Shown in pieces: positions 2,689-30,047 of a stretch of DNA of 39,239 bases. The position numbers and the translations under genes are program-made. Numbering within the stretch: the stretch's first letter is position 1; each line of letters starts with the position of its first letter. Below the pieces are notes generated by a model. The model was not told the origin of the DNA. It did not search any database and worked only from the letters and a program-made list of their open reading frames with translations. Origin of the DNA: Phycisphaerales bacterium (GTDB lineage Bacteria; Planctomycetota; Phycisphaerae; Tepidisphaerales; Tepidisphaeraceae); contig JADLBV010000064.1 of assembly GCA_020847545.1 (NCBI GenBank), positions 1-39,239 of the forward strand, read 5' to 3'.

Positions 2689-3399
2689 ATGCGATATGGC
2701 CTAGATTTGAAGCGGCACAACGCGTTTACCTTGGTGGAACTGCTGGTCGTCATCGGCATCATAGCGCTGTTGATCTCGATATTGCTGCCGGCACTCAACA
2801 AGGCTCGTGAATCGGCCAAACAGGTCTCCTGCCAGAGTCAGTTGCGGCAGATCATACTGGCCAACATCATGTACGCGCAGGACAATCGTGGGGTCCTGCC
2901 GCATTTTGGCGACTATAACACCTACAGCGCGCAGTATGGCCTGCCTGGCAACTATGACAATTACCTGTGGCCCGTGTCACTGTATAAATACCTGTCTGGC
3001 AAGAGCATCCTGTTTACCTGTCCCTCCATCGAACGCTCCAACATCAACACCCTCTTTTACGGATGGCCGGATTTGGAGCGGAATTACGCCGGCAACGGGA
3101 TGGTATATGACGACTCGGTGCTGCGTACGGTGGTGATGGGGAAATTCATCAATGGCGTTCCGCTCTCATGGATCAAACGTCCCTCCACCTTTTGCCTGGT
3201 GGCTGATGGACTGGGAATTGGCGATCTGTGGGCGGTGGGGTTGCACAACAACTTTGATTACCTGAACGCCGGGTGCCGCATTGGTCCCAACCATAACAAG
3301 CAGGCCAACACCGCGTATCTGGATGGTCATGTGGAAGCGGTCTCCAGTAACGGCAAGGGACTGCCCGACAGCGGCATGGATCCGCGCGATCATATGTAA
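2689..3399 (+). CDS. Type II pseudopilin-like protein (prepilin N-methylation motif, H-X9-DG C-terminus)
   Basis: A ribosome-binding site AGGAGG (2675-2680) lies eight bases before the ATG. The 236-residue product carries the class III prepilin signal [20 protein letters not shown] near residue 13, cut before the phenylalanine by prepilin peptidase, with Glu at position 5 of the mature protein. The C-terminus has His, nine residues, then Asp-Gly ([12 protein letters not shown]), the signature of a pseudopilin-like family greatly expanded in Planctomycetota and Lentisphaerota. Such proteins are thought to be membrane-anchored, type II secretion-like subunits, but the function of the family is not established. 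It lies between a PEP-CTERM protein and a secreted hydrolase in one operon. A similar gene is present at 19940-20746. Confidence 0.9.
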
Positions 3400-3473
3400 T
3401 CCATTCGCGATGAGGGGCGAACCTTTGTCGTATCCCGCCTGATCATCAACCATTTTGGATGAAGGAGTTTCGT

Positions 3474-6400
3474 ATGATGACCCGCGTGTTTCTGATGCTG
3501 GCCGGATTGGCGTGCGTATTGGCCGCGGCGGCCCCGGGAGGAGCGCCCAATACATACATCATCGAAGATGGCCGACAAGACCCCGACAAATATTACGATG
3601 AACGGCCCAAGGTGCTCGACCAGAGCCACACGATGGTGACCGAAGGGAAAACTTCGATCCACTTTCAAAGTGGATCAGGTGCGGGGCGAATGCTGTTGAC
3701 GAAGTTCAAGTGGCCGCAGGAAGTGGATTTTTCGACCATCGCCGCCGATGGCACGGTGCGGTTTTCACTCTGGATCGACGATCCATCCCGAATTCGCTCC
3801 TCTGAAATGGGCGATCGCCTTGAATTCTGCATCGGCAGTCGAACCAACGACAAGTTCGCCTACTGGTATGTGCCGGCGGCGCTGTTGCAACCTCGCATTT
3901 GGAATCAGATTTCACTGGCGTTGCGTGATGGGAGGCCGAATCTGGAAGATTCCACGGTGAACGGGTCTTCATTATCAAAAGACAAAAACAGCGCTGTCGT
4001 GGGCACGGACATCGACTGGCAACATGTCAATTATCATCGCTGGTCGATTCCATTTTCCGATTCGATGGAAGGATATCTGGACAATGTGGTGGCCACTGCC
4101 GACGTTTCGGCCACTTCCCAGCCGGTTTCGTTGACGGAACATGAACTGGACCCCATGCCCGGATGTCCTGATTTCGATACCGACCGCATCACGCCACCGG
4201 ATGTCAGCAAGGAGGCATTTTTCGGCCACCCCGACATCGATTTCACCAGGATTAAAGGATGGACAGCGCAGTTTGTCGGTGGAACGGGACAGTTTTATCT
4301 GTCCAAACGACAGGCCATACGAGGCATTCCCAACGCCCGTCTGGAAATGAACGCCGACCGCACCGGCCGGATCGTGCTTACCCCTCCAGAGCCTGTGGTC
4401 GTCGATCATCCCTTCGACACGGTTGAAGCATGGGTTTATGGCGCGTATCACGAAGGTGTGGCGTTGAAGATCAATTTTCAGGATCCTTCCGGCCAAACCT
4501 TCTCCATCGCGGGCGGCAATGAGCAATACGCCCCCGGCGGATTGATCTTCTCCAATTGGACGCTCTATCGCAAACGCAACCCTGCCAAACTCACAGCGCC
4601 GGCCGGCACGCGCATCACCTCCATTGAGATCGGCCCCATCCCATCCGGCAGCTATTTATTCACTCTGGACCAGCTTCAACTGACTCGATTCGATCTCTCC
4701 CAGGAACCGGCCCCATCGTTTCCCCATGCCGGACCGGAGATTCAGATTCCGGTAACCGCCGATGGATCCTGCCCGATCACAAGAAGCGAGATTCAAACCC
4801 GGACTTATCAGGATCACGATCGGTTTATTCTCGAATATCAGCCCAAGGATCAGTCGCCAACAGTGCGCTATGTCTTGTCACCCAGGACAGGAACCATGAC
4901 CGACCTGAGCGTCGAGATTGTGGGGCGAGGTACATTTCGGCCCGCGGTGGACAGCGGGCCGGTGATTGTGCAGGGCGCAAACATGCTCGATCCCACCCAC
5001 GATCCGAACATCCCGCGCCAACTCCTGTCGGCCAACCTCAACGAGCAGGCATTGGCGGTCTCCTGGGCGTATGGGCCGCCCGGGTCGCAGACGATCATCG
5101 ACTACCAATTTCAACTCATGGGCAAGACGCTGGCGGTGAGTGCTTCTTCGCATACGCCAACCGTCAGCCGCTGGTTTTACGGCCATGCCGATGGGCTGGA
5201 AAAACCCAAGGTCATCGAATCACCCTATCGCAAGTACGATGCCAATTTTCTATTCGACCGCGGCATGTTTCTCTCCTATCTGCCCGACTGGTACTTTTCC
5301 AATTCCAGTCACACCCCATGGATGAACGTGAACAGGATCGAAGGAGACAAGGCGTGGTTTGGCTGGGCGGAAGACACGGGAGGGGAATATGGATATCTCC
5401 CACGCACCGACGGAAACCGCTGGCCATTCAAGGAACGATTCTACATCTCCGTCAGCAACCACTACGATGAAATTCTGCCCACGGTGAACAACCCCAAATC
5501 ACCCATGAAGGAGACGTTAAGGAAATACGTCTGGCTGATGGTCAGCAACCGGGGAGACCAGTTTCCCCTGGTTAAACAATACATCCAACAGTGCATCGAC
5601 CTGGGGATGACCAATACCTATTTCATGTGGCATGCCCCGCTTTGGAGCAATCGCGGCGGACGAGGGCCGGAGCCGTTTATCGGCCGAATGAAAGTCTCCG
5701 AAAAATTCGACGATCAAGGCGGAACCGAGGCCGTCGTCGAGTTCTACAACATGCTGCGACAGAATGGCTTTCGCACCGGTTATTACGAGGGATACTGTTT
5801 CATGGAGCCGGTCGCATCCTTTTTCCACCGCGACTGGCTGGGGTACGATTCCAACGGCGACTGGCTGCCGCTGTGGGTGCAGTCGTATAAACCAAAACCT
5901 CAGGCATTTGCCGAGTATGCCGCCACCACCTCAAAGGAACGACAACAAAAGTTCGGCGCGGATGTGGTCTATATGGATGGTTGGACCGCATCGCTTGCGT
6001 TTGAATTCAACGACTACGACGCGCGCTATCTTGAATCCGGGAAAACGATCACCACCCTCCGCGACATTGCGCGGGGTTTTCGGAACCTCAGGCAAACCTT
6101 TAACGGCCCGGCCTTCACCGAAGGTTCCGGAAGGCATTACCGCGAGGCGGGCCTGGTCGATGGCAGCTATGGACAAACGTACGATCAGGACCGCAAAAAA
6201 CCCACGCCGCTGTTCGTCGATTTTCAGCTCCTCAAAACGCACCCTCTCGGTGGCGATCTGGGAATGGGCTGTTGCCGATATATGTTCACCCCCGGCCCAA
6301 ATCCCACCGCGCAGGATGTGTACGATTTTGTCGCTTCCGAGATCGCATTCGGTAACATCGGCCTGCAGGAACCTTATGCCTATTTGAGCATCGAACCGAA

Positions 6401-6899
6401 GATTTTTGACCAATCCCTTTTGACCTATTTCATGGTCCAACAGCTTCAACAATACTATGTGATGGAGCCGGTGGCGCAAATTCGCTACTTCGACGGCCAA
6501 ACCCTGCTCGATACCGATCGGGCCATCGCAACGAATGCACATCTGCTCAGTCAGGTTTACATTCGCTATCAGAATGGGCTGGAGATCTGGGTCAATTGTC
6601 ACCCGGAAGGAAAGCCATGGACCATCCGGAACAATGACCAGACCTTCGTATTGCCCAAAGGGGGATGGCTGGCTCGTATGGGCGATGAATTACTGGAGTT
6701 TTCCGCCCTGATTGACGGCCGGCGGGTCGATTATGTCAATGGACCGGACTATACCTATGTCAATCCTTCCGGCCACGCGTTCGAGTTCGCCGGCGAATCG
6801 TATCCGGCCGGGCAAGCCACGATCCTACATAAAAAAGGCGCGTTGGCAGGAAAACAACTACACTGGCCCAATCCTACCCCCACCACCTCGTCGCATTAA
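3474..6899 (+). CDS. Large secreted candidate glycoside hydrolase (TIM-barrel-like, family not recognised)
   Basis: AAGGAG at 3462-3467 fixes the start at 3474 rather than the upstream in-frame ATG at 3459. The 1141-residue product has a signal peptide (MMTRVFLMLAGLACVLAAAA). Two beta-rich regions follow: about 25-210, and 255-420 resembling carbohydrate-binding folds with phrases such as YLDNVV and FTLDQLQL. The region about 660-1000 reads like a glycosidase barrel. Asp835 in VVYMDGW at a probable strand end could be a nucleophile, and Glu883 in FTEGSG could be an acid/base; both roles are inference. The C-terminal 100 residues look like the beta-sandwich that follows many barrels. It resembles GH101/GH36-type enzymes in style only; I cannot place it in a family. 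It closes the LacI-controlled operon, which supports a role in degrading an extracellular polysaccharide. Confidence 0.72.
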   Translation: MMTRVFLMLAGLACVLAAAAPGGAPNTYIIEDGRQDPDKYYDERPKVLDQSHTMVTEGKTSIHFQSGSGAGRMLLTKFKWPQEVDFSTIAADGTVRFSLWIDDPSRIRSSEMGDRLEFCIGSRTNDKFAYWYVPAALLQPRIWNQISLALRDGRPNLEDSTVNGSSLSKDKNSAVVGTDIDWQHVNYHRWSIPFSDSMEGYLDNVVATADVSATSQPVSLTEHELDPMPGCPDFDTDRITPPDVSKEAFFGHPDIDFTRIKGWTAQFVGGTGQFYLSKRQAIRGIPNARLEMNADRTGRIVLTPPEPVVVDHPFDTVEAWVYGAYHEGVALKINFQDPSGQTFSIAGGNEQYAPGGLIFSNWTLYRKRNPAKLTAPAGTRITSIEIGPIPSGSYLFTLDQLQLTRFDLSQEPAPSFPHAGPEIQIPVTADGSCPITRSEIQTRTYQDHDRFILEYQPKDQSPTVRYVLSPRTGTMTDLSVEIVGRGTFRPAVDSGPVIVQGANMLDPTHDPNIPRQLLSANLNEQALAVSWAYGPPGSQTIIDYQFQLMGKTLAVSASSHTPTVSRWFYGHADGLEKPKVIESPYRKYDANFLFDRGMFLSYLPDWYFSNSSHTPWMNVNRIEGDKAWFGWAEDTGGEYGYLPRTDGNRWPFKERFYISVSNHYDEILPTVNNPKSPMKETLRKYVWLMVSNRGDQFPLVKQYIQQCIDLGMTNTYFMWHAPLWSNRGGRGPEPFIGRMKVSEKFDDQGGTEAVVEFYNMLRQNGFRTGYYEGYCFMEPVASFFHRDWLGYDSNGDWLPLWVQSYKPKPQAFAEYAATTSKERQQKFGADVVYMDGWTASLAFEFNDYDARYLESGKTITTLRDIARGFRNLRQTFNGPAFTEGSGRHYREAGLVDGSYGQTYDQDRKKPTPLFVDFQLLKTHPLGGDLGMGCCRYMFTPGPNPTAQDVYDFVASEIAFGNIGLQEPYAYLSIEPKIFDQSLLTYFMVQQLQQYYVMEPVAQIRYFDGQTLLDTDRAIATNAHLLSQVYIRYQNGLEIWVNCHPEGKPWTIRNNDQTFVLPKGGWLARMGDELLEFSALIDGRRVDYVNGPDYTYVNPSGHAFEFAGESYPAGQATILHKKGALAGKQLHWPNPTPTTSSH

Positions 6900-6975: not shown

Positions 6976-8151
6976 TTACCGCCCCGCCTGCGGTACGGAC
7001 CAATTCAAACTCTCAGGATTGGACTGGCGATACTGCTCGCCGGCCAGTCGGTTGGCGGACAGTGAAGATTCAAGGATTTGCGCTGTCAGCGACCGACCGA
7101 TGGATTGCACATCCGGGGCATCAGTCGGGCCGGATTGGTGATTGACTCGACGGATTAATATATCGCCAAGTGATGTGCGGAAATGACTCGGTTCCCAATA
7201 CCAGCGCATCGGCCTGTCAGGGTGGTCGGCCGATGGGATCGGTTCGGTTGTGAAGGGATTGTAAGTGAAACAATCCCAGAGAATCGGAACCGGACCGCCC
7301 GATTCATCCGTCGGCAGCTCGGCCGTCAGGTCTCGCTTCCATTGTTCCCATTGATCCCACAAACCGATCATCCGAAAATGCTCCATCATGATCGCATGAG
7401 CCGGTGCCAGAACGGCATGAAGCTGGATATTGCGTTGTTGACACAACCGGGCGATCTGACCAAAGCGAATCGACAACTGCCGATCATAAGCAAAATGACG
7501 AAATGGCCCGCCGCGACTCATGCGCTGAAGGGTCTGGATCAGATATTGCCGAGGTGTCAGGTCGGATGGGATCTCCATATTCAATTTCAGACCATGATCC
7601 GAAAATTTGGAAGGCTTGCCGCGAAGTGTGTTGTACAACGCCGAAAACGAACGATCGGTCGAAAACAGCGTCAGGCAATTGTCCTGATGATAGGACAGGA
7701 GATTCAAATTGGGATTAAACCGCGACTTGGCGAATTCTTCGTGTCGCGGAAGTGGAAATTGAGTGAATCCAAAAAAATCGAGCATGAGCACCAGCGTGCG
7801 CGGATGTGCATCGCGGATGGCAAATTCGGCCGCATCCGCCAATTCGCCAAAGAACGCCCCCGGCAATCCACCATTGTAAACCCGCAGCCCACCCCACGCA
7901 GGCGAATCCGGATCGAGGCCGATTTCGACCCTCGAACTGCCGATCATGATGACATCCCATGTGCCGTGGTGGATCATCTCAGCCTTGATGATCCGGCTGG
8001 AACCATAATCCTTGTGAGCATCCAACTTCGGCATGGGAATCAGGCGATACGCACGAAATGGATCGACCAGCAGATTAAAAACCCCCATCCCCAGCAGCAC
8101 GGCCGCCGCGATGAACAACCAGATTCGTAAATAGCGGCCAAAGCAGGACAT
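6976..8151 (-). CDS. Membrane-anchored SGNH-hydrolase-like protein, partner of MBOAT acyltransferase
   Basis: The 391-residue protein has one N-terminal membrane segment (YLRIWLFIAAAVLLGMGVF), so the rest is probably extracytoplasmic. GSSRVEIGLDP near residue 72 matches the block I serine motif of SGNH-type proteins that accompany MBOAT enzymes, and WYWEPSHF near residue 318 resembles the C-terminal block carrying the histidine. The gene starts three bases after the stop of the upstream MBOAT gene, so the two are surely co-transcribed. In alginate (AlgI/AlgJ/AlgX) and Dlt-type systems such pairs move acyl groups across the membrane and onto a polymer. By analogy this protein would complete O-acylation of a surface polysaccharide; the polymer is unknown. 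The C-terminal 50 residues are less conserved in character. Confidence 0.75.
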   Translation of the reverse strand: MSCFGRYLRIWLFIAAAVLLGMGVFNLLVDPFRAYRLIPMPKLDAHKDYGSSRIIKAEMIHHGTWDVIMIGSSRVEIGLDPDSPAWGGLRVYNGGLPGAFFGELADAAEFAIRDAHPRTLVLMLDFFGFTQFPLPRHEEFAKSRFNPNLNLLSYHQDNCLTLFSTDRSFSALYNTLRGKPSKFSDHGLKLNMEIPSDLTPRQYLIQTLQRMSRGGPFRHFAYDRQLSIRFGQIARLCQQRNIQLHAVLAPAHAIMMEHFRMIGLWDQWEQWKRDLTAELPTDESGGPVPILWDCFTYNPFTTEPIPSADHPDRPMRWYWEPSHFRTSLGDILIRRVNHQSGPTDAPDVQSIGRSLTAQILESSLSANRLAGEQYRQSNPESLNWSVPQAGR

Positions 8152-8154
8152 AGA

Positions 8155-9666
8155 TCAAAATCGGTAATAGATGAATTCACTCACTCGCGATAGTTGGGTA
8201 AAAGCGGCCAACGACATCGCCGCGATCACCGCCGCCCAAATAGGCGTTGGGCGCCAGACAAAGGCACCCGGCCGTCTGATCCTGGCTACGGATGGACTGA
8301 ATCGACGCAGGTATTCCAATGCGGGCTTGTAATGACTCATCAACTCCTGGGTATTGGGCAGCAAAAAGACCGCCGCCAGCAACCCCCCCACCCACAGCAG
8401 TCTATTGTTCTCCTCAAAAACCATTGGCCCGGCCAGTGAGGTGACATCGGCCATCCCCAACAGGACGATTTTGGCCGCGTGAAATGTATCCGCCCGAAAA
8501 AAGACCCACGCCCCCACCACCGCCACAAATGTCAACGCGCCCGCTCCCAGTCGAAAGATCGAAAATCCAACCTTAACCCCGGTCGACCGATCCGGCCCGG
8601 CGCCGCGCAAATGTCGCCATGCATGATTGACCACCAGATACAGGCCATGAAGAAATCCCCACGCGATGAATGTCCACGCCGCCCCATGCCACAGGCCGCC
8701 CAACAGCATCGTGACCATGAGATTGATATACCGGCGGAATTTTCCTTTGCGGTTTCCCCCCAGCGGGATGTAAAGGTAGTCGCGTAAAAAACGGGAGAGG
8801 GTGATGTGCCAACGTCGCCAGAATTCGATGATGTTGAGGGATTTATAAGGTGAATCAAAATTCAACGGCAGCCAGATGCCAAAGAGCCTCGCGATGCCGA
8901 TGGCCATGTCGGAATAGGCGGAAAAATCGAAGTAAATCTGTAGCGTATAGGCCAGCGCCCCCAGCCAGGCATCGGCAAACCCAACCGATTGCCCCGCGGC
9001 CGCCGCCCCAAAGACGGCCGAGGCGTGCGGTGCGATGGCATCCGCCAGTGCCACTTTCTTAAACAACCCGATCAGAAAAATCGTCCCCCCCACCGCAATG
9101 TCGCGGAGAAAGACACGATGCCACCGACGGGTTGCAAATTGAGGAACCAGTTCGGCGTGGTGAACAATCGGACCGGCGATCAGTTGCGGGAAAAACATGA
9201 CAAACAGGCCAAAATCCAGCAGGTTGTATGCCTCGGCCTTGCCGCGATAACAATCAACCAGATAGGCGATCTTCTGAAACGTGAAAAACGAAATCCCCAA
9301 CGGCAGAACAATATCGAGCATCCCCCAGTGCGAACCGGCCAATTCGTTAAAACTTTGCAGGAAAAAATTGGTGTACTTGAAATAGACCAGCAACCCCAGA
9401 TTAAATACCAGCCCACAAACCAGAATCGTGCGACGAAGGACCGGATTGACCCGCGTCACCAGCAGCCAGCCGGCCGCGAAATTGACCAGTATCGCCCCCG
9501 CCAAGAGCGGCACAAAGCGCAACTCGCGCCAGCCGTAATAAAAAAACGAACAAAAAACCAGCCAAGCGATCTGCCCCCGCCGCCAATTCAGCCGGCCAAG
9601 CAATAAATATCCCACCACCGACAGCGGCAGAAAGATGAAAATGAATTCGCGAGAGTTAAAGAGCAT
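8155..9666 (-). CDS. MBOAT-family membrane O-acyltransferase (AlgI-like)
   Basis: The protein begins MLFNSREFIFIFLPL, the characteristic start of AlgI-like proteins; for that reason I use the ATG at 9666 and not the in-frame one at 9690. The roughly 503 residues contain about ten membrane segments. The MBOAT core includes FFPQLIAGPIVH, FWRRWHITLSRFLRDYLYIP, GGNRKGKFRRYINLM and GGLWHGAAWTF, with the near-invariant active-site histidine in LWHG. The enzyme passes acyl (usually acetyl) groups from the cytoplasm through the membrane. The downstream SGNH-like gene is translationally close (three-base gap). A bacterial exopolysaccharide or cell-wall polymer is the likely target. The family call is firm; the substrate is not visible. 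Confidence 0.93.
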   Translation of the reverse strand: MLFNSREFIFIFLPLSVVGYLLLGRLNWRRGQIAWLVFCSFFYYGWRELRFVPLLAGAILVNFAAGWLLVTRVNPVLRRTILVCGLVFNLGLLVYFKYTNFFLQSFNELAGSHWGMLDIVLPLGISFFTFQKIAYLVDCYRGKAEAYNLLDFGLFVMFFPQLIAGPIVHHAELVPQFATRRWHRVFLRDIAVGGTIFLIGLFKKVALADAIAPHASAVFGAAAAGQSVGFADAWLGALAYTLQIYFDFSAYSDMAIGIARLFGIWLPLNFDSPYKSLNIIEFWRRWHITLSRFLRDYLYIPLGGNRKGKFRRYINLMVTMLLGGLWHGAAWTFIAWGFLHGLYLVVNHAWRHLRGAGPDRSTGVKVGFSIFRLGAGALTFVAVVGAWVFFRADTFHAAKIVLLGMADVTSLAGPMVFEENNRLLWVGGLLAAVFLLPNTQELMSHYKPALEYLRRFSPSVARIRRPGAFVWRPTPIWAAVIAAMSLAAFTQLSRVSEFIYYRF

Positions 9667-9806
9667 GATGCCCCAACCGCCACAGATCATCAGAAACAGG
9701 CGTTCGCGGGCATCTTATATAAAGGAGGATTCGGTGCAATTCGCGGTTTGAGTCACATCCTCAGACTAAAAGCCAAGTATGATTCTCGAAACTCTCTGCG
9801 CATTTA

Positions 9807-12000: not shown

Positions 12001-13476
12001 ATGCTTCTACACCAACTCCTGCGGCAACTTGATTACAACGAATCCTTCGCTTCCGTCCCCAATATCCCCATCACCGCGATTGTTGACGATTCTCGCCGGG
12101 TGATCCCCGGTTCGCTGTTTATCGCCCGTCCCGGCACAAAGACTGATGGGACGAAATTCGTCGCCGATGCGGCCGCTCGTGGCGCGGCCGTGGTTTTGAC
12201 CCAAAGCCACATCGACAGTTGTAGTCTGCCGCAAGTTTTAATAAAAAATACCGCCTTGGCCGTCCCGTTGCTCGCCCATGCGTTTTGCGATCATCCCACC
12301 CGGCAGGTCAAGGTCATTGGCGTCACCGGAACCAATGGCAAAACCACCACGACCTATCTCATCCGCCACCTGCTGGCCAAGATCGGACGGCATTGCGGAC
12401 TGATCGGCACGGTCCAGATCGACGATGGTCAAAAAACCACCGAAGCCGCCATGACCACCCCCGGCGCCATCGAACTGGCTCAATTATTGGCCACCATGCG
12501 GGACAATGGCTGTCAGACCTGCGCCATGGAGGTCTCCAGCCATGCGTTGCATCAACAGCGCACCGCAGGCATCGGGTTCGCGGCGGCCGCCTTCACCAAC
12601 CTGACGGGCGACCATCTGGATTATCACAAGACCATGGACGCCTACGCGGATGCCAAGGCGATGCTGTTTGAAGGATTGGACGACCAGGCGGTAGCGGTGG
12701 TCAACGCGGAGGATTCATTCACTCCGCGCATGATCCGCGACACCTCCGCGCGGATCATCCACTTCGGATTCACCGAAAAGGCCGATTATCAGGCCCGCGA
12801 CATCGCCGTCACGGCCCAGGGAAGCCATTTTGTGCTGGTGACACCCGATGGCCGGGCCAATGTGCAGATGCAATTGATCGGGCGACACAACATCGAAAAC
12901 GCCCTGACGGCGGCCGCGCTGGTCGGCGAAACGTTCGGATTATCGGTACATCAAATCGCCGCGGGATTGAAGGATGCGCAAGGCGCTCCCGGACGATTGC
13001 AGGCGGTGCGTTCCGGGCAGCCATTTGCCGTGCTGGTGGACTACGCCCATACGGACGATGCGTTGGAAAACGTCCTGTCGGCGCTGCGGCCATTGTCACG
13101 CGGCAAGCTGCGCATCCTGTTCGGATGCGGTGGCGACCGGGATCGGACCAAACGCCCGCGAATGGCGCGCACCGCGATGAAATTCGCCGATGTCATCTAC
13201 ATCACCAGCGACAACCCAAGGACCGAGAATCCACAGGGGATCATTGATGAAATTCTTACGGGCCTCCCTGCCGATAAATCAACGTCGGTGGTGGTTGAGC
13301 CGGATCGTCGGCGCGCCATCGAATTGGCACTGAATGATGCGCAAGAAGGCGACATCATCCTGCTGGCGGGAAAAGGTCACGAAAATTACCAGATTATCGG
13401 CACCGAAAAACGCCATTTTGATGATGTTGAGGAAGCCACCCGAATTTTGGGCCAACGATTTAACATTCAGGTGTAG
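12001..13476 (+). CDS. murE: UDP-MurNAc-L-Ala-D-Glu:meso-diaminopimelate ligase
   Basis: The 491-residue protein is a full-length Mur ligase. It has the ATP-binding loop GTNGKTTT (residues 110-117), TTPGA for substrate binding, MEVSSHAL, FTNLTGDHLDYHKTM, the lysine in DAKAMLF that is carbamylated in this family, and DNPR (404-407). DNPR selects meso-diaminopimelate over lysine, so the peptidoglycan is predicted to be of the DAP type. GGGAAAGGA (about 11988-11996) gives a ribosome-binding site. The gene is followed after 10 bases by murF, and then by mraY. It acts in the cytoplasm, adding the third amino acid to the peptide stem. Confidence 0.96.
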   Translation: MLLHQLLRQLDYNESFASVPNIPITAIVDDSRRVIPGSLFIARPGTKTDGTKFVADAAARGAAVVLTQSHIDSCSLPQVLIKNTALAVPLLAHAFCDHPTRQVKVIGVTGTNGKTTTTYLIRHLLAKIGRHCGLIGTVQIDDGQKTTEAAMTTPGAIELAQLLATMRDNGCQTCAMEVSSHALHQQRTAGIGFAAAAFTNLTGDHLDYHKTMDAYADAKAMLFEGLDDQAVAVVNAEDSFTPRMIRDTSARIIHFGFTEKADYQARDIAVTAQGSHFVLVTPDGRANVQMQLIGRHNIENALTAAALVGETFGLSVHQIAAGLKDAQGAPGRLQAVRSGQPFAVLVDYAHTDDALENVLSALRPLSRGKLRILFGCGGDRDRTKRPRMARTAMKFADVIYITSDNPRTENPQGIIDEILTGLPADKSTSVVVEPDRRRAIELALNDAQEGDIILLAGKGHENYQIIGTEKRHFDDVEEATRILGQRFNIQV

Positions 13477-13486
13477 CCGCTGAATC

Positions 13487-14905
13487 ATGAAACCCCTTTC
13501 ATTGCACCAGATTCGCAAAGCCATTGGCGGCAAGGCCTTAACGCCGATACCGGCGACGGTCCCTCCCATCGCGGCGATCTGCATCGACACGCGCCGACTG
13601 GAAAAAGGGTGCTTGTTTGTCGCGATCAAGGGTGACAAATTCGACGCCCATCGTTTTTTGCGCGATGCGGCCGGGGCGGGGGCGATCGCGGCGCTGGTGG
13701 ACCATGTGCCGGCCGAGACATTGCCCAATGTCCACCTGATCCATGTCCCCGATACGCGGGTGGCACTGGGCAAACTGGCCCGATATGTCCGCCAGCAGAT
13801 GATCAGCAAAGTCATCGCGGTCGGCGGATCGAACGGCAAAACAAGCACCAAAAATCTGATTGACGCGGCCTTGCGCGGAAAATTGCGCGGGTCGATCTCC
13901 CCCAAGAGCTTTAACAATGACATCGGCGTGCCGCTGACCATCTTCCCGGCCGACCCGTCGCAGGATTATCTGGTGCTGGAGATGGGAACCAACCACCATG
14001 GCGAGATCAAAATCCTCAGCGATATGGCGCTGCCGGACATCGCGGTCATCACCAATTGCACGGCCGAACATCTCGAAGGGCTGGACGACTTGGCGGGTGT
14101 GCGTCGGGAAGAGGCCAGCATCATCAGCGGCCTGAATAAGAAGGGATTATTGGTCGTCAACGGGGATGATGATGAACTGCTGACGCTGGTTCAGCCTTAT
14201 GCGGGCAAACGGATCACCTTTGGATTCAAACACACCAACGACCTCTTTGCCACCGAAATCCAGTGTGATGAAAAGGGGGTGAGTTTTCTATTAAACAACA
14301 ATCCGCGCCGGCGGATTTTCATCCCCATTTTGGGCAAACACACCGCCGCCAACGCGCTGGCCGCCATCGCTGTCGCCCGCCGAATGGGTCTTAACGAAGA
14401 TTCTGTCATCCAGAGCCTCGCACAGGCCAACGGCCCGGAGATGAGGCTGCAATTGCAGCACATCGGCCATCTGACTCTCCTGAACGATGCGTACAACGCC
14501 AACCCCGCATCCATGCGGGCGGCGTTGGAGACGCTCTGCTCGTTGTCTGCATCCTCCCGGCGCATCGCCGTCTTGGGCGACATGCGCGAACTGGGCCAAT
14601 CCTCCGAACGGTTTCACCGCGAGATGGGTGAATTCGTCGCCACCTGCCCGCTGGATCGGTTGCTGTGCGTCGGGCCACTCTCGACCATGATCGCCAAGGT
14701 CGCAAAGGAATCGGGCATGAAGGCGAATGCCATTTCGCACCATCCCGACGCCGCGGATGCCGCCAAGGCCCTGTCGGCGTTCGTCCGGCCCAATGACACG
14801 ATCCTGCTCAAAGGCTCCCGCGCGATACACCTGGAAGAAATCGCCGCCACGCTGGAAACCGCCTCCCAACCCGCCCGCACCACCCGCCGTCGAACCGCAT
14901 CATGA
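13487..14905 (+). CDS. murF: UDP-MurNAc-tripeptide:D-Ala-D-Ala ligase
   Basis: This 472-residue protein has MurF architecture: an N-terminal substrate domain with CIDTRRLEKGCLFVAI, the ATP loop GGSNGKTST (residues 113-121), NNDIGVPLTIF, LEMGTNHHGEI and ITNCTAEHLEG, and a C-terminal domain with LNDAYNANPASMRAAL and LGDMRELG. All are MurF hallmarks. It adds D-Ala-D-Ala to the tripeptide made after MurE, completing the cytoplasmic pentapeptide precursor. Its stop overlaps the start of mraY by four bases (ATGA), so translation is coupled. The D-Ala-D-Ala supplier, ddl, is not next to it as in some clusters but about 14 kb away at 29145. Confidence 0.96.
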   Translation: MKPLSLHQIRKAIGGKALTPIPATVPPIAAICIDTRRLEKGCLFVAIKGDKFDAHRFLRDAAGAGAIAALVDHVPAETLPNVHLIHVPDTRVALGKLARYVRQQMISKVIAVGGSNGKTSTKNLIDAALRGKLRGSISPKSFNNDIGVPLTIFPADPSQDYLVLEMGTNHHGEIKILSDMALPDIAVITNCTAEHLEGLDDLAGVRREEASIISGLNKKGLLVVNGDDDELLTLVQPYAGKRITFGFKHTNDLFATEIQCDEKGVSFLLNNNPRRRIFIPILGKHTAANALAAIAVARRMGLNEDSVIQSLAQANGPEMRLQLQHIGHLTLLNDAYNANPASMRAALETLCSLSASSRRIAVLGDMRELGQSSERFHREMGEFVATCPLDRLLCVGPLSTMIAKVAKESGMKANAISHHPDAADAAKALSAFVRPNDTILLKGSRAIHLEEIAATLETASQPARTTRRRTAS

Positions 14906-16097: not shown

Positions 16098-18587
16098 TCA
16101 GCGAACCGGCGCTCCCGCTTCAATCATCTCCGCCACCTGATTTCGATACTCCATCAATTCCCGCGGATCATCGCTGAATTCATACGCCGATTTCACCAGA
16201 TGATCCGGCACGACCAACAGCGCTTCGGCCTGTTTCAACCATGCGCGCTCCGATGTGGAGAGCTTGTTCAGCGGCTTTTGTTTCAATTCACTCACACGCT
16301 CCCGCAGGATGGTTAAATATCCATAATCCTCAACCCCATCCCGGAAATTCTCCAGCCGCACGCTGGCCAGCGGATTGCCATCCTGCCCCGGATAGATCAA
16401 ATACCCTTCACCGTTGTACGGCTGACGAAAACAACGCGCATCCCACTGTGTGAACGGCCCGCTGTCCACGGTCTTCCGTGGTGGGCCTTCATCCCGCAAC
16501 ATGCTGTAATATAAAAATCCCTGCGAACCCATCTTGAATGTCATCACCCCCGGCAACAACCGAAGCTCGATCGCCGGATATTCCGTGAACACATTCGGAT
16601 ACGGATGCGCCGGCGACTGACAGGTATACCACCACACTTCCTTCCCCTCCGATTGCACCTGCATCGCCCGCTGCTGGTTGTAATCGGTCAACACCGGAAC
16701 CCAGATGTCCCAGTTGGTCAGCCCGCTTTGCGGCCCCCAGTCGGCCGCCAGCGCTGTGGTCATCAATTTCACTTCCGGAAATTCATGCTTCAGCGCCGTC
16801 GTCACTTTTTTCATCAGCGGGATGTAATCCGCCGTCACTTCATCAAATCCGTAAATATATGCGCGATCCAGCACCCCCGCCCCCTTGGCCGCCTCATATC
16901 CCGGCCGCAGTTCGGCCAGCAGCTTTTCAATCTCCTCCTGCTGTTGCGCCTCGGTCAGGGAGGGCGTCAGCACCGTATAATCCAGCGTCCCCAGATTGAA
17001 CCACCCCAATGTCCCCTTGTCGCGCAGATACTTGATCAACTCCATGTCCGGCGGGCCATGCCGATAAAGATCATCGTATGTCAGGTCATATTCAGCGAGA
17101 AAATCCGCATATTTGAACTTGAACCGGCTCCAATCCTGTGTCGTGTATTTGGCGAAAAATGACTCCCCCGACGTCGTCATCGCCAAAGAGAGCGGCGAGC
17201 GGTCCGGCAATTCAAAATCATACACCCGCACGCACAATTCCACCTCGGCGGCGGGTTTTCCCTCCATCACCACCCGTATCTTCCCGCGATAATCCCCCGC
17301 CGGCTGATCCTTGGCCGCCTTGATCCTCACCCAAAACGCCTGCGCATCCCCCGGTTGCACATCCACGGTCGGCAGAAAATCAATCAACGGGTCCGGCCAC
17401 CACCCGACATAATCCACCGCATATTCCGGCCGGCTGGTCTTCACATACCCCACCACCCGCACATCCAAATCCTCACCCTTCAACACCGCCCCTTTCTCAC
17501 CTGTCAAATCCGAAGTTTCAACATGAACCCCTCGCAACGGCGCATCCAGCGGCACCAGCGCCACCTGAAAACTCTCCCGCTCATTGCGCGCCAGACTCAA
17601 CCGCACCTTCTCGCTCCCATCCAACCGCACCGGCATGTCGCGCGGCAGAATTTTTTCGGCCGCCGGCGCCACGCCCAGCAGATACCCATCCCGCCCCGCC
17701 TTCGACCCGATCTGGTCGGCCAGATTCAGCAAACTCACCAGCCGATGGCCCCTCTGGCCGGTCCGCACCACTTCGTGTGATAACTCATCAATCCGATCCA
17801 ACGTCCAATTACCCTCCGCAAGCTCCTTTTTCGCATCTTGAATCGTCTTGGTCAGTTCCTGTCGTTGCTGTGCGGCCCACTTCGCAATCGCGGCCGGCCG
17901 GCTGGTCTTACCCATCGACTTTTCCACTTCCTCCATCGCGCGCACGGCCTGTGGCAACGCACCCTGCGCCACTTTCATTTGCGCCACTTCCCGCAAATAT
18001 GATTTTGGAAATTCCGGCGGCATCTCCCCCGGCGCCAGCAGCATCACGTTGTCGATATAAATCTCAACATCCCCCTCCGCCCGCGCGGTGTAAAAAACGA
18101 AAACCGATATGTCCGACCGATCCACCCCCGACATCCAGGCATCCAGCGGCACAATCTCCCGCCGGGCGGACCTTGGTGGGATGCTCACCGATCCCCCCGG
18201 CCAACTTCCGCTGCTGGTTTTGGCCATCTTGGAATCCACCGCCTTGAATCGAATCAACGCGGTCGAATCGGTTGGATTGGTCAGATCAATCGAAATCCGG
18301 TCATAGCCGCGCCAATCCTTGATCGTCGGCGTCGTCACCCACTGCGGCCACTGCTGCATCCCCGGCTTCCATGTGGGCGTCGTCCAGACCACGGACTTCT
18401 CCCCCCGCGTGACGAACCGGCTCGACAATTCCAGCCGATCCTGTTGCGGCAAATTCAACGACCACGCCGACAAATCGGCCGGTCTCTCAAAATCAAACAA
18501 ATTAACTGACTTTGGCTCCCCTGCCCGCGCCAACCCTGCCCCAATAATCGCCACCGCCACCACCCAACACGCCAACAATCGATTCAT
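16098..18587 (-). CDS. Secreted DUF4091/GH123-like glycoside hydrolase
   Basis: The 829-residue protein starts with a signal peptide (MNRLLACWVVAVAIIGAGLARA). Residues about 25-190 form a beta-rich, carbohydrate-binding-like domain ending DIYIDNVMLL in style (VEIYIDNVM). A helical stretch follows (about 195-290), then an N-terminal beta domain (310-455) and a catalytic barrel. Asp582-Glu583 in YIYGFDEV matches the Asp-Glu pair of GH123 (substrate-assisted beta-N-acetylgalactosaminidases; the barrel corresponds to DUF4091). The C-terminal part has FLYYSMLRDEG and LIYPG and LRDGVEDYGYL-like text, typical of this family. It lies 17 bases after the GntR-type regulator on the same strand, so it is probably under that control. 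The family call is good; the exact sugar is inferred. Confidence 0.85.
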   Translation of the reverse strand: MNRLLACWVVAVAIIGAGLARAGEPKSVNLFDFERPADLSAWSLNLPQQDRLELSSRFVTRGEKSVVWTTPTWKPGMQQWPQWVTTPTIKDWRGYDRISIDLTNPTDSTALIRFKAVDSKMAKTSSGSWPGGSVSIPPRSARREIVPLDAWMSGVDRSDISVFVFYTARAEGDVEIYIDNVMLLAPGEMPPEFPKSYLREVAQMKVAQGALPQAVRAMEEVEKSMGKTSRPAAIAKWAAQQRQELTKTIQDAKKELAEGNWTLDRIDELSHEVVRTGQRGHRLVSLLNLADQIGSKAGRDGYLLGVAPAAEKILPRDMPVRLDGSEKVRLSLARNERESFQVALVPLDAPLRGVHVETSDLTGEKGAVLKGEDLDVRVVGYVKTSRPEYAVDYVGWWPDPLIDFLPTVDVQPGDAQAFWVRIKAAKDQPAGDYRGKIRVVMEGKPAAEVELCVRVYDFELPDRSPLSLAMTTSGESFFAKYTTQDWSRFKFKYADFLAEYDLTYDDLYRHGPPDMELIKYLRDKGTLGWFNLGTLDYTVLTPSLTEAQQQEEIEKLLAELRPGYEAAKGAGVLDRAYIYGFDEVTADYIPLMKKVTTALKHEFPEVKLMTTALAADWGPQSGLTNWDIWVPVLTDYNQQRAMQVQSEGKEVWWYTCQSPAHPYPNVFTEYPAIELRLLPGVMTFKMGSQGFLYYSMLRDEGPPRKTVDSGPFTQWDARCFRQPYNGEGYLIYPGQDGNPLASVRLENFRDGVEDYGYLTILRERVSELKQKPLNKLSTSERAWLKQAEALLVVPDHLVKSAYEFSDDPRELMEYRNQVAEMIEAGAPVR

Positions 18588-18604
18588 GTCAATCCTGTTG
18601 TTAG

Positions 18605-19711
18605 TTATTCATGACAGGCCTGTGCGCAGGTCTGTCTGATTTTCAACTCCACCCCCACCGCTTCCGGCCGCGGTTTTTGGCCGTTCATCATCTGGGACAG
18701 ATATTTCACCGCACGCTGCGCGATTGCTTCCATCGGCAGATGAATCGCCGTCAACGTGCTGCCCGCCGGCAGAAAATCACCGTAAGCCAACACCGACAAA
18801 TCTCGCGGCACCGACAACCCAAGGCTCTGCGCCAGTTTGATCCCCTCCAACGCCATCTGGTCATCCGTAAAAATCAGCGCCGTCGGCCGATCATCCGATG
18901 TCAGCCACTCACGCACCCTCTCCTGAACCGTCGGCCAACGAAAATCGCTATAGACGATACGGTCCTCGCGGCACGGTGTTCCCGCCGTCGCCAGTTCCAC
19001 CAACAGCCTTTCGGCAAGCAATCCCGATGGCCGCACCACCCTTGGATCAACCCCCGGCCGCGGCCCCATCACCAATCCGGTCCGCCGATGCCCAAGCGCG
19101 GTGATAAACCGCACCAGTTGAGTCGCGCCGTCGGCCACATCCTCCATCACCCACGGGACGCGATCTTCCGGATCAAGATAAATATCCCGACTGGTCACCA
19201 CGGGGACTTTCAATTGCACCAGCCGATCAATGTCCTCCGCCGGCGGCGCGCTATAGGTAATCACCCCATGAATGTGCCAATCCTCAATCAGCCGCGACAA
19301 CAGCGTCGGCTCATTGGCCGAAAAAATCGTCCCTTCCATCAGCGGGAAAAGTTGCAGATGAATCCGCTCATCACACGCGGACATCACCCCGCGCTGAAAC
19401 CGCTCCACATCGCGCAAAATGGCCTGTTGATACCCCCGGTCAAACGTGATTGCGATGTTCTGCACGCGCCTGCTGGGCACTTCCTGCACATAGGTTCCAC
19501 GCGAAGGAACACCCTTCAACAACCCCTGCTTTTTGAGGGTGTTCAACGACCGGATCACTGTCCGATAGGCCACGCCAAACCGCTTGGACAACTCCTGGCC
19601 ATTGGGCAAACACGCCCCGGCCGGCAACTCTCCCTGCAAAATCTTCTCGCGCAACTGATCTTCAATCTGCCGATAGACCGGCACTGTTCGATTGCGATCC
19701 AAGTCGAGCAT
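18605..19711 (-). CDS. GntR-LacI hybrid transcriptional regulator
   Basis: Residues about 1-75 form a GntR winged helix-turn-helix (PVYRQIEDQLREKILQGEL, LPNGQELSKRFGVAYRTVIR, GLLKGVPSRGTYV). The remainder is a LacI-type sugar-binding domain, with LGHRRTGLVMG, TALIFTDDQMALEGI and PRDLSVLAYGD. This layout is that of AraR-like repressors of sugar genes. I use the ATG at 19711; an in-frame GTG at 19729 would add six residues. The DUF4091/GH123-like gene follows 17 bases downstream. Inverted repeats with AGTAT half-sites overlap the likely -10 (19773-19778) of this gene, pointing to autoregulation and to control of the divergent pseudopilin operon. The inducer is unknown. Confidence 0.92.
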   Translation of the reverse strand: MLDLDRNRTVPVYRQIEDQLREKILQGELPAGACLPNGQELSKRFGVAYRTVIRSLNTLKKQGLLKGVPSRGTYVQEVPSRRVQNIAITFDRGYQQAILRDVERFQRGVMSACDERIHLQLFPLMEGTIFSANEPTLLSRLIEDWHIHGVITYSAPPAEDIDRLVQLKVPVVTSRDIYLDPEDRVPWVMEDVADGATQLVRFITALGHRRTGLVMGPRPGVDPRVVRPSGLLAERLLVELATAGTPCREDRIVYSDFRWPTVQERVREWLTSDDRPTALIFTDDQMALEGIKLAQSLGLSVPRDLSVLAYGDFLPAGSTLTAIHLPMEAIAQRAVKYLSQMMNGQKPRPEAVGVELKIRQTCAQACHE

Positions 19712-19752
19712 GATTGATGCGGAAGTCACAATTATCGAATCCCTAATAGGCT

Positions 19753-19800
19753 AAGTATACATTTATACCTAGAGTATACTAATACTTCATCGTAAAGCAA
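19753..19800 (-). promoter_or_regulatory. Promoter and tandem operators of the GntR-type regulator gene
   Basis: Read on the minus strand, TTGCTT (19795-19800) and TATACT (19773-19778) are 16 bases apart and form a plausible -35/-10. Two inverted repeats overlap or follow the -10. One is AGTAT-ACTA-ATACT at 19773-19786. The other is AAGTATA-CATT-TATACCT at 19753-19770 (one mismatch). Their centres are 18 bp apart, close to two helical turns. The position is right for repression by the GntR-LacI hybrid encoded just downstream. This is inferred from symmetry and location. Confidence 0.55.
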
Positions 19801-19883
19801 GTCAAATTGGCCTTGATTCATAAATACTGTTATTCCAAGCAATATATACGCTTCCTTCATTTTTGCGATTCTAAATAATTTTC

Positions 19884-19931
19884 TTGACACCCCTATAAAA
19901 TGGTGTTAAATATACTTTAGTGACAAAGTAT
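19884..19931 (+). promoter_or_regulatory. Promoter and inverted repeat upstream of the second pseudopilin operon
   Basis: TTGACA (19884-19889) is followed after 17 bases by TAAATA (19907-19912). Directly downstream, ATACTTT and AAAGTAT flank AGTGAC (19912-19931), a 20-bp inverted repeat over the expected transcription start. Its AAGTAT/ATACTT half-sites resemble those in the divergent regulator promoter at 19753-19786. This suggests that one repressor controls both directions. Confidence 0.55.
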
Positions 19932-19939
19932 GGATCGGG

Positions 19940-20746
19940 ATGCACATGGAAAAATCAATGACCCAATTCCGCTCGTTCACAATCCGGCCGGCACATCGGA
20001 CAACCGCATTTACCTTGGTTGAGCTGCTTGTCGTCATAGGCATTATCGCGCTATTGATCGGCATCCTCATGCCCGCCCTCACCCGCGCCCGCGAGGCCGC
20101 CAATCAGGTGGCCTGCGCCAGCAATATGCGTCAATGGGCCACCTCATTGGTCGCCTATTCCACCGACAACAAGGGGTGGCTCCCCATGTTTGGCGAAACC
20201 TATGCCCTCGATGGCCCAGAACCCACCCTCTGGTGGAACACCCTGGCCCCCTATCTGGGCAAACAGCCGACCAATGCGGGTGGATATTACCCCTCTCAGG
20301 CCGCCAATCTGGAATCCATGTCCAAAATTCGCGGCTGTCCCTCCGACCCGGAACACACGTTCGTCGGCCCACACTATGGTGGCTTCGCATATGCGAGTGG
20401 AGTCCTGTACGGCCCCATCGTCTGGGGTCGCTACAACGCCACCGATCCTGTCGTCGGAGTGCGCATCACCCGGATCAAACAATCCGGCAGCCTGATCGTC
20501 TTCGCCGAAACCACCAACCCTTATTATCAGATTTACAGCCCCAGCAACTGGGTCTTCAATTCGGATGCCGATGGCGATGGGATTCTGGATACCTACAGCT
20601 ATTACCTTGGCTGGAACAACTACAACGGCGGCAAACCCAAGATTCACCACGGCAGTTCCAACGTCGGCTTCTGTGACGGCCACGTTGAAAGCCTGCCTTT
20701 CAATACATGGGTGACCGACATGAACTATTGGACCATTAAACAGTAA
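19940..20746 (+). CDS. Type II pseudopilin-like protein (H-X9-DG family)
   Basis: This 268-residue protein has the prepilin cleavage/methylation motif [20 protein letters not shown] near residue 24. It also has the C-terminal His-X9-Asp-Gly signature (HHGSSNVGFCDGHVE), as in the protein at 2689-3399. Between them is a soluble domain rich in Gly, Tyr and Trp, with DADGDGILDT resembling a calcium-binding loop. It is the first gene of the rightward arm controlled by the divergent region, followed by a PEP-CTERM protein. The start could be 19940, 19946 or 19958, since no clear ribosome-binding site separates them. The N-terminal class III signal argues for the inner membrane with an extracytoplasmic C-terminal domain. 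The function is unknown; association with secretion or glycan handling is inference. Confidence 0.9.
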   Translation: MHMEKSMTQFRSFTIRPAHRTTAFTLVELLVVIGIIALLIGILMPALTRAREAANQVACASNMRQWATSLVAYSTDNKGWLPMFGETYALDGPEPTLWWNTLAPYLGKQPTNAGGYYPSQAANLESMSKIRGCPSDPEHTFVGPHYGGFAYASGVLYGPIVWGRYNATDPVVGVRITRIKQSGSLIVFAETTNPYYQIYSPSNWVFNSDADGDGILDTYSYYLGWNNYNGGKPKIHHGSSNVGFCDGHVESLPFNTWVTDMNYWTIKQ

Positions 20747-20801
20747 ACCAAGATGCCTGTTTGGGCATCAGTTATCACCCCTTTTTATAGGAGCAGAGAT
20801 C

Positions 20802-21638
20802 ATGAGTGGAATGCGTCATTTGAGTATCGTTGCCACAGGCATGGCCGGACTTTTGGTCGCGGGTGCCGCGGCACAGGCCTCGACCATCTCCTTCCAGAAC
20901 GGCGCCAGCAATTCGTATGTCAGCAACTATGCGGGTACGTCGGACACGACGTTCAACAGTTCCGGCAGCAGCGGCTACGGCGACGGGAACTGGGGTGCCA
21001 GGAACGCGATGTCGGCCAATCAGTCCAGAACATGGGAGGAACTGGAAGCTTTGGTGCGATTTGACCTGTCGGCATTGACTGGGCAGGGACTGACGGTCAA
21101 CAGCGCGACGCTGAAACTGGCGTCAATTGCCGGTGGTGGATACGACAACTTGCCCGTCTCTTTTTATGCCATTTCGGCTGCCAATGCGGGATGGCAACAG
21201 GGAACTGGGACGTCTTTCGGTCCATCGGCACCCGACGGTGAGGCGACTTGGCAAAAACTGGCGGAGTCATCGACAAACTGGGCCGGGTCCGCGGGTCTGA
21301 AAACATCGAATACGGATTATAATCCAACCGCGGTGGCCACCGGGATTTACAATACCAGCGATGCGAGTGGGACAATCGTGTCGTTCACATTGTCGGCAAG
21401 CCAGGTGCAATCGTGGATTGACACGCCGTCGGGCAATGCGGGCCTCGTGTTGCGGACGGCCAACTGGTCGGGAAATCCTACTCCGATATATTACGCAAAT
21501 GCACAGTATTCCACTTCTGAACAGTCCAATGCGGCCTTGAGGCCGGAGCTGGTGCTGGAAGTGTCTGCCATCCCCGAACCCGCCTCATTGGCCGGCCTGG
21601 GATTGCTCGGCCTGTTCCTTCGCCGCCGTCGGGCTTGA
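20802..21638 (+). CDS. Secreted PEP-CTERM protein with DNRLRE-like domain
   Basis: AGGAG (about 20789-20793) precedes the ATG. The 278-residue product has a signal peptide ending near AAAQAST. The middle resembles the DNRLRE beta-sandwich: an opening segment that includes DTTF and YGDGNWGARN, then EALVRFDLSALTG, VNSATLKLAS, W-x-x-G-T, TWQKLAES and VQSWID, then GLVLRT. The C-terminal PEP-CTERM signal is IPEPASLAGLG...LRRRRA. DNRLRE domains occur in surface and carbohydrate-active proteins. It follows the pseudopilin by 55 bases and is followed by a good terminator, so the two form one transcript. A glycan-binding or surface-display role is likely but not shown. Confidence 0.87.
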   Translation: MSGMRHLSIVATGMAGLLVAGAAAQASTISFQNGASNSYVSNYAGTSDTTFNSSGSSGYGDGNWGARNAMSANQSRTWEELEALVRFDLSALTGQGLTVNSATLKLASIAGGGYDNLPVSFYAISAANAGWQQGTGTSFGPSAPDGEATWQKLAESSTNWAGSAGLKTSNTDYNPTAVATGIYNTSDASGTIVSFTLSASQVQSWIDTPSGNAGLVLRTANWSGNPTPIYYANAQYSTSEQSNAALRPELVLEVSAIPEPASLAGLGLLGLFLRRRRA

Positions 21639-29004: not shown

Positions 29005-29144
29005 ACAGGTCCATTGAAGTTTAGCCGCTGGGGGTGGGTTTTCAAGTGCGGGATCGGCTTGAATCATCGGGGGTTGCCCCCTGGCGGCTGGATCGGATAG
29101 CATCGGCGGATCATTCGATAAAGGTTTCCAACAGGGCGATCATC

Positions 29145-30047
29145 ATGGCATCCCAACTTCGCATCACCGTTCTTCGTGGCGGGCCTTCGGCCGAGCGGGA
29201 GGTTTCGTTGGTTTCCGGGGGGGCGGTGGCCAATGGGTTGCGGCAGATGGGACATCTGGTTTTTGAGTCGGACATCACACCCGACCATCTGGCCGCGCTG
29301 GATCAGCCGGCCGATCTGGTCTTTCCGGTGTTGCATGGGGCGTGGGGAGAGTCGGGGGAGTTGCAGGAGATTCTGGAAGGGAGGAAGCTCCCGTTTGTCG
29401 GGTCCGGGTCGGCGGCATCCCGGTTGGGAATGAACAAGGCACAGACCAAGCTCGCGTGGGAACTCAACGGCCTGCCGACACCCTCCTATCAGGTTCTGTC
29501 CCGACAGAATCGGTCGGCCGACATTCCGGTCCCCTGTGCGGTCAAGGCGCTCGATTCGGGGTCTTCCATCGATGTTTACATCTGTCATACATCGGCCGAG
29601 GCGCATAAGGCGATCGATGCGATTTTGGCCAAGCAGGATCAGGTGTTGGTGGAACAGTTTATCAAGGGGCCGGAATTGACCATTGGCCTGCTGGAGGAGG
29701 AGCCGCTGGCCCCCATTCGCATCGTCGCCAAGCGGGCGTTTTTTGATTATGAGGCCAAATATCGATCCAGCGACACCGAACACCGGTTCGACACCGGCCT
29801 GCCGGCCGAGGTGGTGGAGTCTTGTCGTCAATTGGCCAAAAAGGCCAATGAGATCGTGGGTGCGCGTGACTTGTCGCGCATCGACCTGATGCTGGATGAA
29901 AAGAACAATCCTTATTTGCTGGAAATCAATACGCTGCCTGGGTTTACGCCAAAAAGCCTGCTGCCGGAGGCGGCCGCCCACGCGGGGATTGCCTTTGGGC
30001 CGCTGGTGGATCGGCTCGCCCGGCGGGCCTTTGCGCGGTCGCAATAA
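29145..30047 (+). CDS. ddl: D-alanine--D-alanine ligase
   Basis: The 300-residue protein from the ATG at 29145 is a compact ATP-grasp ligase. It has LRGGPSAEREVSLVSG at the N-terminus (the Ddl G-G-x-S-A-E motif) and FPVLHGAWGESGELQ. The ATP-grasp core carries VEQFIKGPELTIGLL and FFDYEAKY, then RIDLMLDEKNNPYLLEINTLPGF in segments, with the metal-binding Glu and Asn in EIN. It joins two D-alanines in the cytoplasm, the substrate MurF needs. It lies upstream of an ftsQ-like gene, the usual ddl-ftsQ order, but away from murE-murF-mraY. Upstream open reading frame into tRNA-Gln is not part of the gene. Confidence 0.95.
   Translation: MASQLRITVLRGGPSAEREVSLVSGGAVANGLRQMGHLVFESDITPDHLAALDQPADLVFPVLHGAWGESGELQEILEGRKLPFVGSGSAASRLGMNKAQTKLAWELNGLPTPSYQVLSRQNRSADIPVPCAVKALDSGSSIDVYICHTSAEAHKAIDAILAKQDQVLVEQFIKGPELTIGLLEEEPLAPIRIVAKRAFFDYEAKYRSSDTEHRFDTGLPAEVVESCRQLAKKANEIVGARDLSRIDLMLDEKNNPYLLEINTLPGFTPKSLLPEAAAHAGIAFGPLVDRLARRAFARSQ

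Follow-up and report, generated by a model that had tools for sequence, protein, structure and literature searches.

The described enzymes whose fold is nearest to that of the protein analysed here act on alpha-linked GalNAc, 3,6-anhydrogalactose or galactose; mucin alpha-GalNAc and carrageenan anhydrogalactose are among the targets that such enzymes cleave. In GH13, GH101 and GH129 an aspartate on barrel strand 4 is combined with a glutamate on strand 5; in GH36 the acid residue is located on strand 6. For the GH129 enzyme NagBb the second catalytic residue, Glu478, follows strand 5. It was shown that Asp435 of NagBb is catalytic (PMC5698469) and that its Trp398 serves as the stacking platform for GalNAc (PMC8106489). 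The GH129-like enzyme DagB uses a residue from a second monomer in its active site (PMC5698469), and for GH101 the nucleophile and the acid/base have been described, with a carboxylate distance of 4.2 Å in EngBF (PMC10949244).

Here, a gene of a Phycisphaerales bacterium is presented, which is located in a window, i.e., the whole stretch of DNA that was analysed, of 39,239 nucleotides. Its product, P0001, had been interpreted in a first-pass annotation as a glycoside hydrolase. This interpretation is supported, with corrections: P0001 is likely to be a secreted alpha-glycosidase of several domains that retains anomeric configuration and has a barrel like that of GH101/GH129, in which D835 would act as nucleophile and E883 as acid/base.

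Gene, operon and protein layout

The list of open reading frames opens the frame of P0001 at position 3459 (1146 residues), and an ATG at 3474 gives 1141 residues. The latter start, which the first-pass annotation had used, is favoured because the sequence AAGGAG (3462–3467) sits six bases ahead of it. Two orthologues with 53% and 54% identity to P0001 are encoded in a genome of the same phylum and another class (G743); the frame is therefore a real conserved gene with near-full-length orthologues and conserved motifs. In its own genome P0001 is present as a single copy. It is the last of four genes on the same strand, the first of which encodes a LacI-family regulator, in agreement with the earlier placement at the end of a LacI operon. 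The features are as follows.

635–658, no strand: perfect 24-bp palindrome CTTATCCCAATCGATTGGGATAAG, candidate LacI-type operator (genome-wide search, position)
669–1748, plus: LacI-family regulator with sugar-binding domain (Peripla_BP_3 4.8e-29; LacI HTH weak)
1769–2617, start possibly 1775, plus: secreted LamG (concanavalin-like) protein with PEP-CTERM anchor (Laminin_G_3 2.1e-14, PEP-CTERM)
2689–3399, plus: DUF1559-type pseudopilin (N_methyl and SBP_bac_10 start, H-X9-DG-like end)
3474–6899, plus: P0001, predicted secreted glycoside hydrolase of 1141 residues (open reading frame, homologue alignment, model, structure matches)
3474–3533, plus: putative signal peptide, residues ~1–20 (sequence, model)
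3546–4208, plus: N-terminal domain, residues ~25–245 (stand-alone secreted copies beside orthologues in G743)
4227–4694, plus: beta-sandwich, residues 252–407, FlaA/CBM-like (model, FlaA profile match)
4785–5456, plus: beta-supersandwich, residues 438–661, as ahead of the barrel in GH101/GH129/GH36 (model, structure comparison)
5505–6461, plus: catalytic (beta/alpha)8-type barrel, residues 678–996 (model, Foldseek, VIA-align)
5874–5876, plus: W801, counterpart of Trp398, the stacking platform of NagBb (alignments)
5976–5978, plus: D835 (VVYMDGW), proposed nucleophile, equivalent of NagBb Asp435 (alignments)
6120–6122, plus: E883 (FTEGSG), proposed acid/base (alignments, model)
6471–6827, plus: C-terminal beta domain, residues 1000–1118 (model)

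The genes for the LacI-type regulator, the LamG protein, the pseudopilin and P0001 are separated by gaps of 20, 71 and 74 bp. The palindrome is located 10 bp upstream of the LacI gene start and is unique in the genome, with no second copy within three mismatches. LacI-family sites typically carry a central CG, and because of its position and its central CG the palindrome is a candidate operator. Near the two orthologue loci of G743, a sugar-binding GntR/LacI-type regulator and a pseudopilin (C17) and an AraC/PocR regulator (C75) were found.

By inspection, the N-terminal sequence MTRVFLMLAGLACVLAAAAPG looks like a signal peptide of type I, a signal peptide having also been annotated earlier, and the model places a helix at residues 2–18. 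The two sandwiches, the barrel and the C-terminal beta domain of the first-pass annotation are all present in the model, but one further N-terminal domain had been missed. Its region (13–240) is of low confidence in the AlphaFold model, and modelling of the N-terminal region alone from a single sequence yielded a pLDDT of 39 and no usable fold. In a profile comparison, the first sandwich (252–407) matched FlaA sheath proteins with E 2e-4. In two P0001-type loci of G743 (L158:7673–8365 and L159:8481–9164), the N-terminal domain of the enzyme is encoded a second time beside it, as a separate secreted protein, these copies being 52–55% identical to the domain of P0001; at a third locus (L173:15017–15577) a stand-alone copy with 57% identity lies next to an enzyme that has a different N-terminal domain.

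Family, fold and kinship with GH129 and GH101

P0001 alone gave no match in searches of Pfam, NCBIfam and PDB sequences, and as a single query it retrieved no relative in a first scan of genome contigs. A profile built from two remote relatives found matches in 59 of 397 genomes of the same class, many of them through the barrel segment only and thus belonging to the wider fold group. With a nine-member alignment, 79 loci were collected from public genomes, which are 22–32% identical to P0001, mostly across residues 252–1107. The family, of which about 90 members were aligned, covers at least 12 phyla (Planctomycetota, Armatimonadota, Acidobacteriota, Omnitrophota, Bacteroidota, Verrucomicrobiota, Lentisphaerota, Kiritimatiellota, Poribacteria, KSB1, Calditrichota and Nitrospirota), as taken from record titles, in which some labels of metagenome-assembled genomes may be wrong, e.g., a Bacillota record inside a Bacteroidota clade. 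The family representatives scanned, including L009, L011 and L013, matched no Pfam model, and the literature search found no paper on the family. As judged by Pfam, NCBIfam and PDB sequences, P0001 is a member of a widespread unnamed family, and the statement of the first-pass annotation that no numbered family could be recognised holds for P0001 and its closest relatives, for none of which a confident match was obtained. One Bryobacteraceae contig (L072, JAHCHE010000018.1) carries a near-tandem array of family genes, of which three are complete and a fourth is partial.

In 78 of 78 aligned homologues the residues D835, E883, H720, Y771, K808, Y833, D847, D849, R851, G893 and Y899 are invariant. 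D835 and E883, which are found at the positions given in the first-pass annotation, are also identical in all 87 core rows, and W801 is present in 86 of these. The conservation of D847, D849, R851, Y771 and Y774 is partly due to selection because these residues lie inside the two patterns used for retrieval; D835 and E883 lie outside both.

The kinship with GH129 becomes apparent by way of relatives. The relative P0002 (L002) aligns with NagBb (E 8.6e-9), placing Asp435 on the column of D835. A ten-member profile that includes P0001 finds NagBb with E 2.9e-13, aligning Asp435 with D835 and Trp398 with W801, and finds DagB with E 1e-6 over about 90 residues ahead of the catalytic aspartate only. 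E883 can be aligned with the glutamate in PF11308 (GH129) only by way of intermediates (one of 660 residues), and the link to GH129/GH101 as a whole passes through DUF5696-like and ~650-residue intermediates. The outer relatives L002, L008, L018 and L031 exceed the cut-off of DUF5696 (PF18952), for which the literature search found no paper, and in some outer relatives GH101 and DUF6259 give weak signals. For P0001, no match above cut-off was obtained to PF11308 (GH129), which has none in its whole genome, to PF12905 (GH101) or to DUF5696, and the same holds for L009, L011 and L013 with DUF5696. Direct comparison of the family with the GH129 or the GH101 core alignment alone by hhalign was insignificant (E 0.14 and E 0.5), which argues for kinship at the level of a superfamily rather than for membership in GH129 or GH101.

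The AlphaFold2 model of P0001, built with a 78-row alignment, has a mean pLDDT of 76 and a pTM of 0.79, with values above 85 for most of residues 245–1118. In VIA-align, DagB (5opq) is the top match (Z 26.9, 544 residues aligned), followed by NagBb (5wzp; Z 26.6, rmsd 3.5, 514 aligned) and, at lower scores, by GH36 (Z ~20.6) and GH101 (Z 18.3); the best Foldseek match is GH101 (3ecq, E 2e-18). The likeness to GH101/GH36-type barrels that had been noted earlier is retained insofar as both are among the structure matches, but DagB and NagBb are closer. D835 closes the barrel strand 831–834 and E883 the next one, 880–883, in blocks with pLDDT values of 75 and 79. Both thereby lie at the C-terminal ends of consecutive strands, from which we infer the geometry of the common pocket that the first-pass annotation had expected.

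Catalysis, substrate and alternative readings

By sequence and model, P0001 is very probably a catalytic glycosidase of the GH101/GH129 fold group, and the LacI operon with its candidate operator and the polysaccharide utilisation loci around Bacteroidota members of the family speak for the same reading. D835, at the end of strand 4, would attack the anomeric carbon, E883, at the end of strand 5, would protonate the leaving group and subsequently activate a water molecule, and W801 would stack beneath the sugar in the -1 subsite. The earlier assignment of D835 and E883 as nucleophile/acid pair thus stands with respect to their invariance and to the strand pattern of GH13/GH101/GH129, but this pattern is not that of GH36. 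The beta-sandwich domains together with the LamG/PEP-CTERM partner may keep P0001 on the glycan. A LacI-type repressor may act at the one dedicated palindrome, the released sugar turning the operon on.

The closest competitor keeps the fold and D835 as nucleophile and assigns the acid/base, as in DagB, to another invariant acid, e.g., D847. DagB is the top structural match and the second catalytic residue of NagBb is not conserved in it (PMC5698469), D847 is invariant in all core and outgroup rows, and E883 is replaced by serine in the aligned rows L018 and L026. However, D847 lies inside a retrieval pattern, by which its conservation in the core is inflated, whereas E883 ends strand 5, is kept in five of seven outer rows in addition to the core (D835 in every one) and, through intermediates, is matched to the glutamate in GH129. 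A DagB-like pair is therefore improbable, and E883 is preferred as acid/base.

P0001 departs from 37 of the 106 near-invariant columns of the family, more than any other row, with replacements including R725S, D726N, N773G and D776F, all at pocket positions, and H837W. Several of these changes are shared by the G743 orthologues (e.g., F776, G773 and W837), and the motifs GYYEGY, YMDGWTA and RGGRGxEPF are conserved in P0001 and the two orthologues (L139 and L155). In a quick tree, P0001 and its two orthologues group together with a support of 100 and fall outside the remaining 84 core rows, which have a support of 99. The stem branch of the three measures 1.48, so that long-branch effects are possible. 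The many replaced pocket residues and the long stem would fit a subfamily that has lost activity, with P0001 descending from the barrel enzymes but binding carbohydrate or having some other role without catalysis. Yet P0001, L139 and L155 all retain D835, E883, W801, H720, Y771, K808 and Y833, and this reading is less probable still: because these residues are kept and new motifs are conserved among the three, a re-specialised active site is favoured. It is very improbable that P0001 resembles the alpha-galactosidases of GH36/GH31 type, with its acid on strand 6, since the GH36 structures with Z ~20 are outscored by DagB and NagBb, no Pfam GH36 match was obtained, and D904, which follows strand 6 in P0001 and its two orthologues, is missing as a conserved residue from the other family members, whereas E883 is conserved there.

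If P0001 is an active retaining glycosidase, the next point is its substrate. By alignment with NagBb, the replaced residues fall in segments that line the -1 subsite, and for this reason a sugar other than that of the rest of the family may be expected; P0001 and its two orthologues form a divergent subfamily, the specificity of which is probably new. Bacteroidota members of the family are located in polysaccharide utilisation loci (PULs) that also encode SusCD, a GH95 enzyme, a sulfatase, a SASA esterase and GH5-like and DUF6259 proteins, suggesting that the glycan used by these members is partly sulfated and contains fucose or galactose. The immediate neighbours of family members are diverse (one or two cases each of GH123, GH92, GH109, sulfatase and DUF6785), and a substrate call from them was dropped for this diversity. 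From fold neighbours and context, an alpha-galacto-configured substrate of the GalNAc, galactose or 3,6-anhydrogalactose type is tentatively proposed for P0001, with nearly as much weight for it as against it.

Genomic cassettes and comparison with known systems

The genome contains 47 DUF1559 matches, and the window together with 20 further stretches (L176–L195) was surveyed for their neighbourhoods. A PEP-CTERM-type open reading frame lies within 200 bp of 20 of the 25 pseudopilin genes. Up to 1.5 kb from a pseudopilin, 23 of 146 frames are of this type, compared with 12 of 246 at larger distances (Fisher p 4e-4), where the motif is a rough regular expression and overlapping frames in the count are not independent. 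The neighbours are rich in LacI/GntR sugar-binding regulators (Peripla_BP_3 in 16 of 109 proteins) and further include PEP-CTERM and LamG proteins and large enzymes, many of them without a common Pfam family. Judged by these neighbourhoods, the operon of P0001 seems to follow a cassette design that is used many times in this genome. A pseudopilin as constant neighbour of the family of P0001 was rejected; as only 5 of 79 family loci have one, it belongs to the cassette style of this genome. A description of this arrangement is not known to us.

A second cassette in the window (16098–21638) comprises a GH123-type enzyme, a GntR/LacI-type regulator, a DUF1559 pseudopilin (19940–20746) and a PEP-CTERM beta protein (20802–21638); the GH123 family is known for beta-GalNAc. 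On the minus strand, 6976–9690 encodes an MBOAT (DltB-like) acyltransferase and a 391-residue partner without Pfam match, which on inspection reads like a DltD/AlgJ-type SGNH protein, and the pair probably serves acylation of a cell-surface glycan. MurE and MurF (12001–14905) and, further on, D-Ala-D-Ala ligase (29034–30047) are part of a peptidoglycan gene region in this planctomycete-type genome.

Taken further, and with somewhat less than even odds, these proteins from at least 12 phyla may make up a glycoside hydrolase family that is new within the GH101/GH129 fold group, with P0001 in a subfamily re-specialised for a new substrate, and its operon may be one of some 45 parallel cassettes composed of a LacI/GntR-type regulator, a lectin-like protein with PEP-CTERM, a DUF1559 pseudopilin and a large enzyme for SusCD-less glycan utilisation, in which the pseudopilin might be the part for capture or delivery. 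The family, which has no Pfam model, is directly testable, with its proposed catalytic pair located and with relatives in PULs of cultured Bacteroidota (Carboxylicivirga, Mariniphaga). It would fill a gap in glycan annotation in planctomycetes, Armatimonadota, Acidobacteriota and Kiritimatiellota, and the cassette pattern offers a route to enzymes paired with their regulators in phyla that do not generally use SusCD.

Among the known systems, the GH129 alpha-N-acetylgalactosaminidase NagBb (5wzn, 5wzp) has the fold of barrel and supersandwich in common with P0001, and Asp435 corresponds to D835, Trp398 to W801, and the strand-4 aspartate and the strand-5 glutamate, the latter aligned through intermediates, suggest a like pattern; the identity is only about 10%, and P0001 has two or three extra domains. 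The His/Asp/His of the presumed calcium site, altered in the NagBb quadruple mutant (5wzq), aligns with H720 and Y771 of P0001, letters that differ from those of NagBb, and the histidine of the mutated motif (THDQY) is set against a tyrosine that is invariant in the family of P0001. DagB (ZGAL_3152; 5opq, 8rzk), a 3,6-anhydro-D-galactosidase, has the highest structural score but is 12–13% identical, the family profile matching it weakly over strand 3. The GH101 endo-alpha-N-acetylgalactosaminidases (3ecq, 5a56, 2zxq) are large secreted multidomain proteins like P0001 and share with it the supersandwich, the barrel and the strand-4 aspartate/strand-5 glutamate at 8–10% identity. The GH36 alpha-galactosidases (1zy9, 6gta) are alike in fold, but their acid is on strand 6 and the proposed acid of P0001 on strand 5. 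Finally, those outer relatives of DUF5696 type that were placed on the tree form the sister group of the family; they carry a histidine at 771, whereas the family of P0001 combines Tyr771 with an invariant D-x-D-x-R at 847–851.
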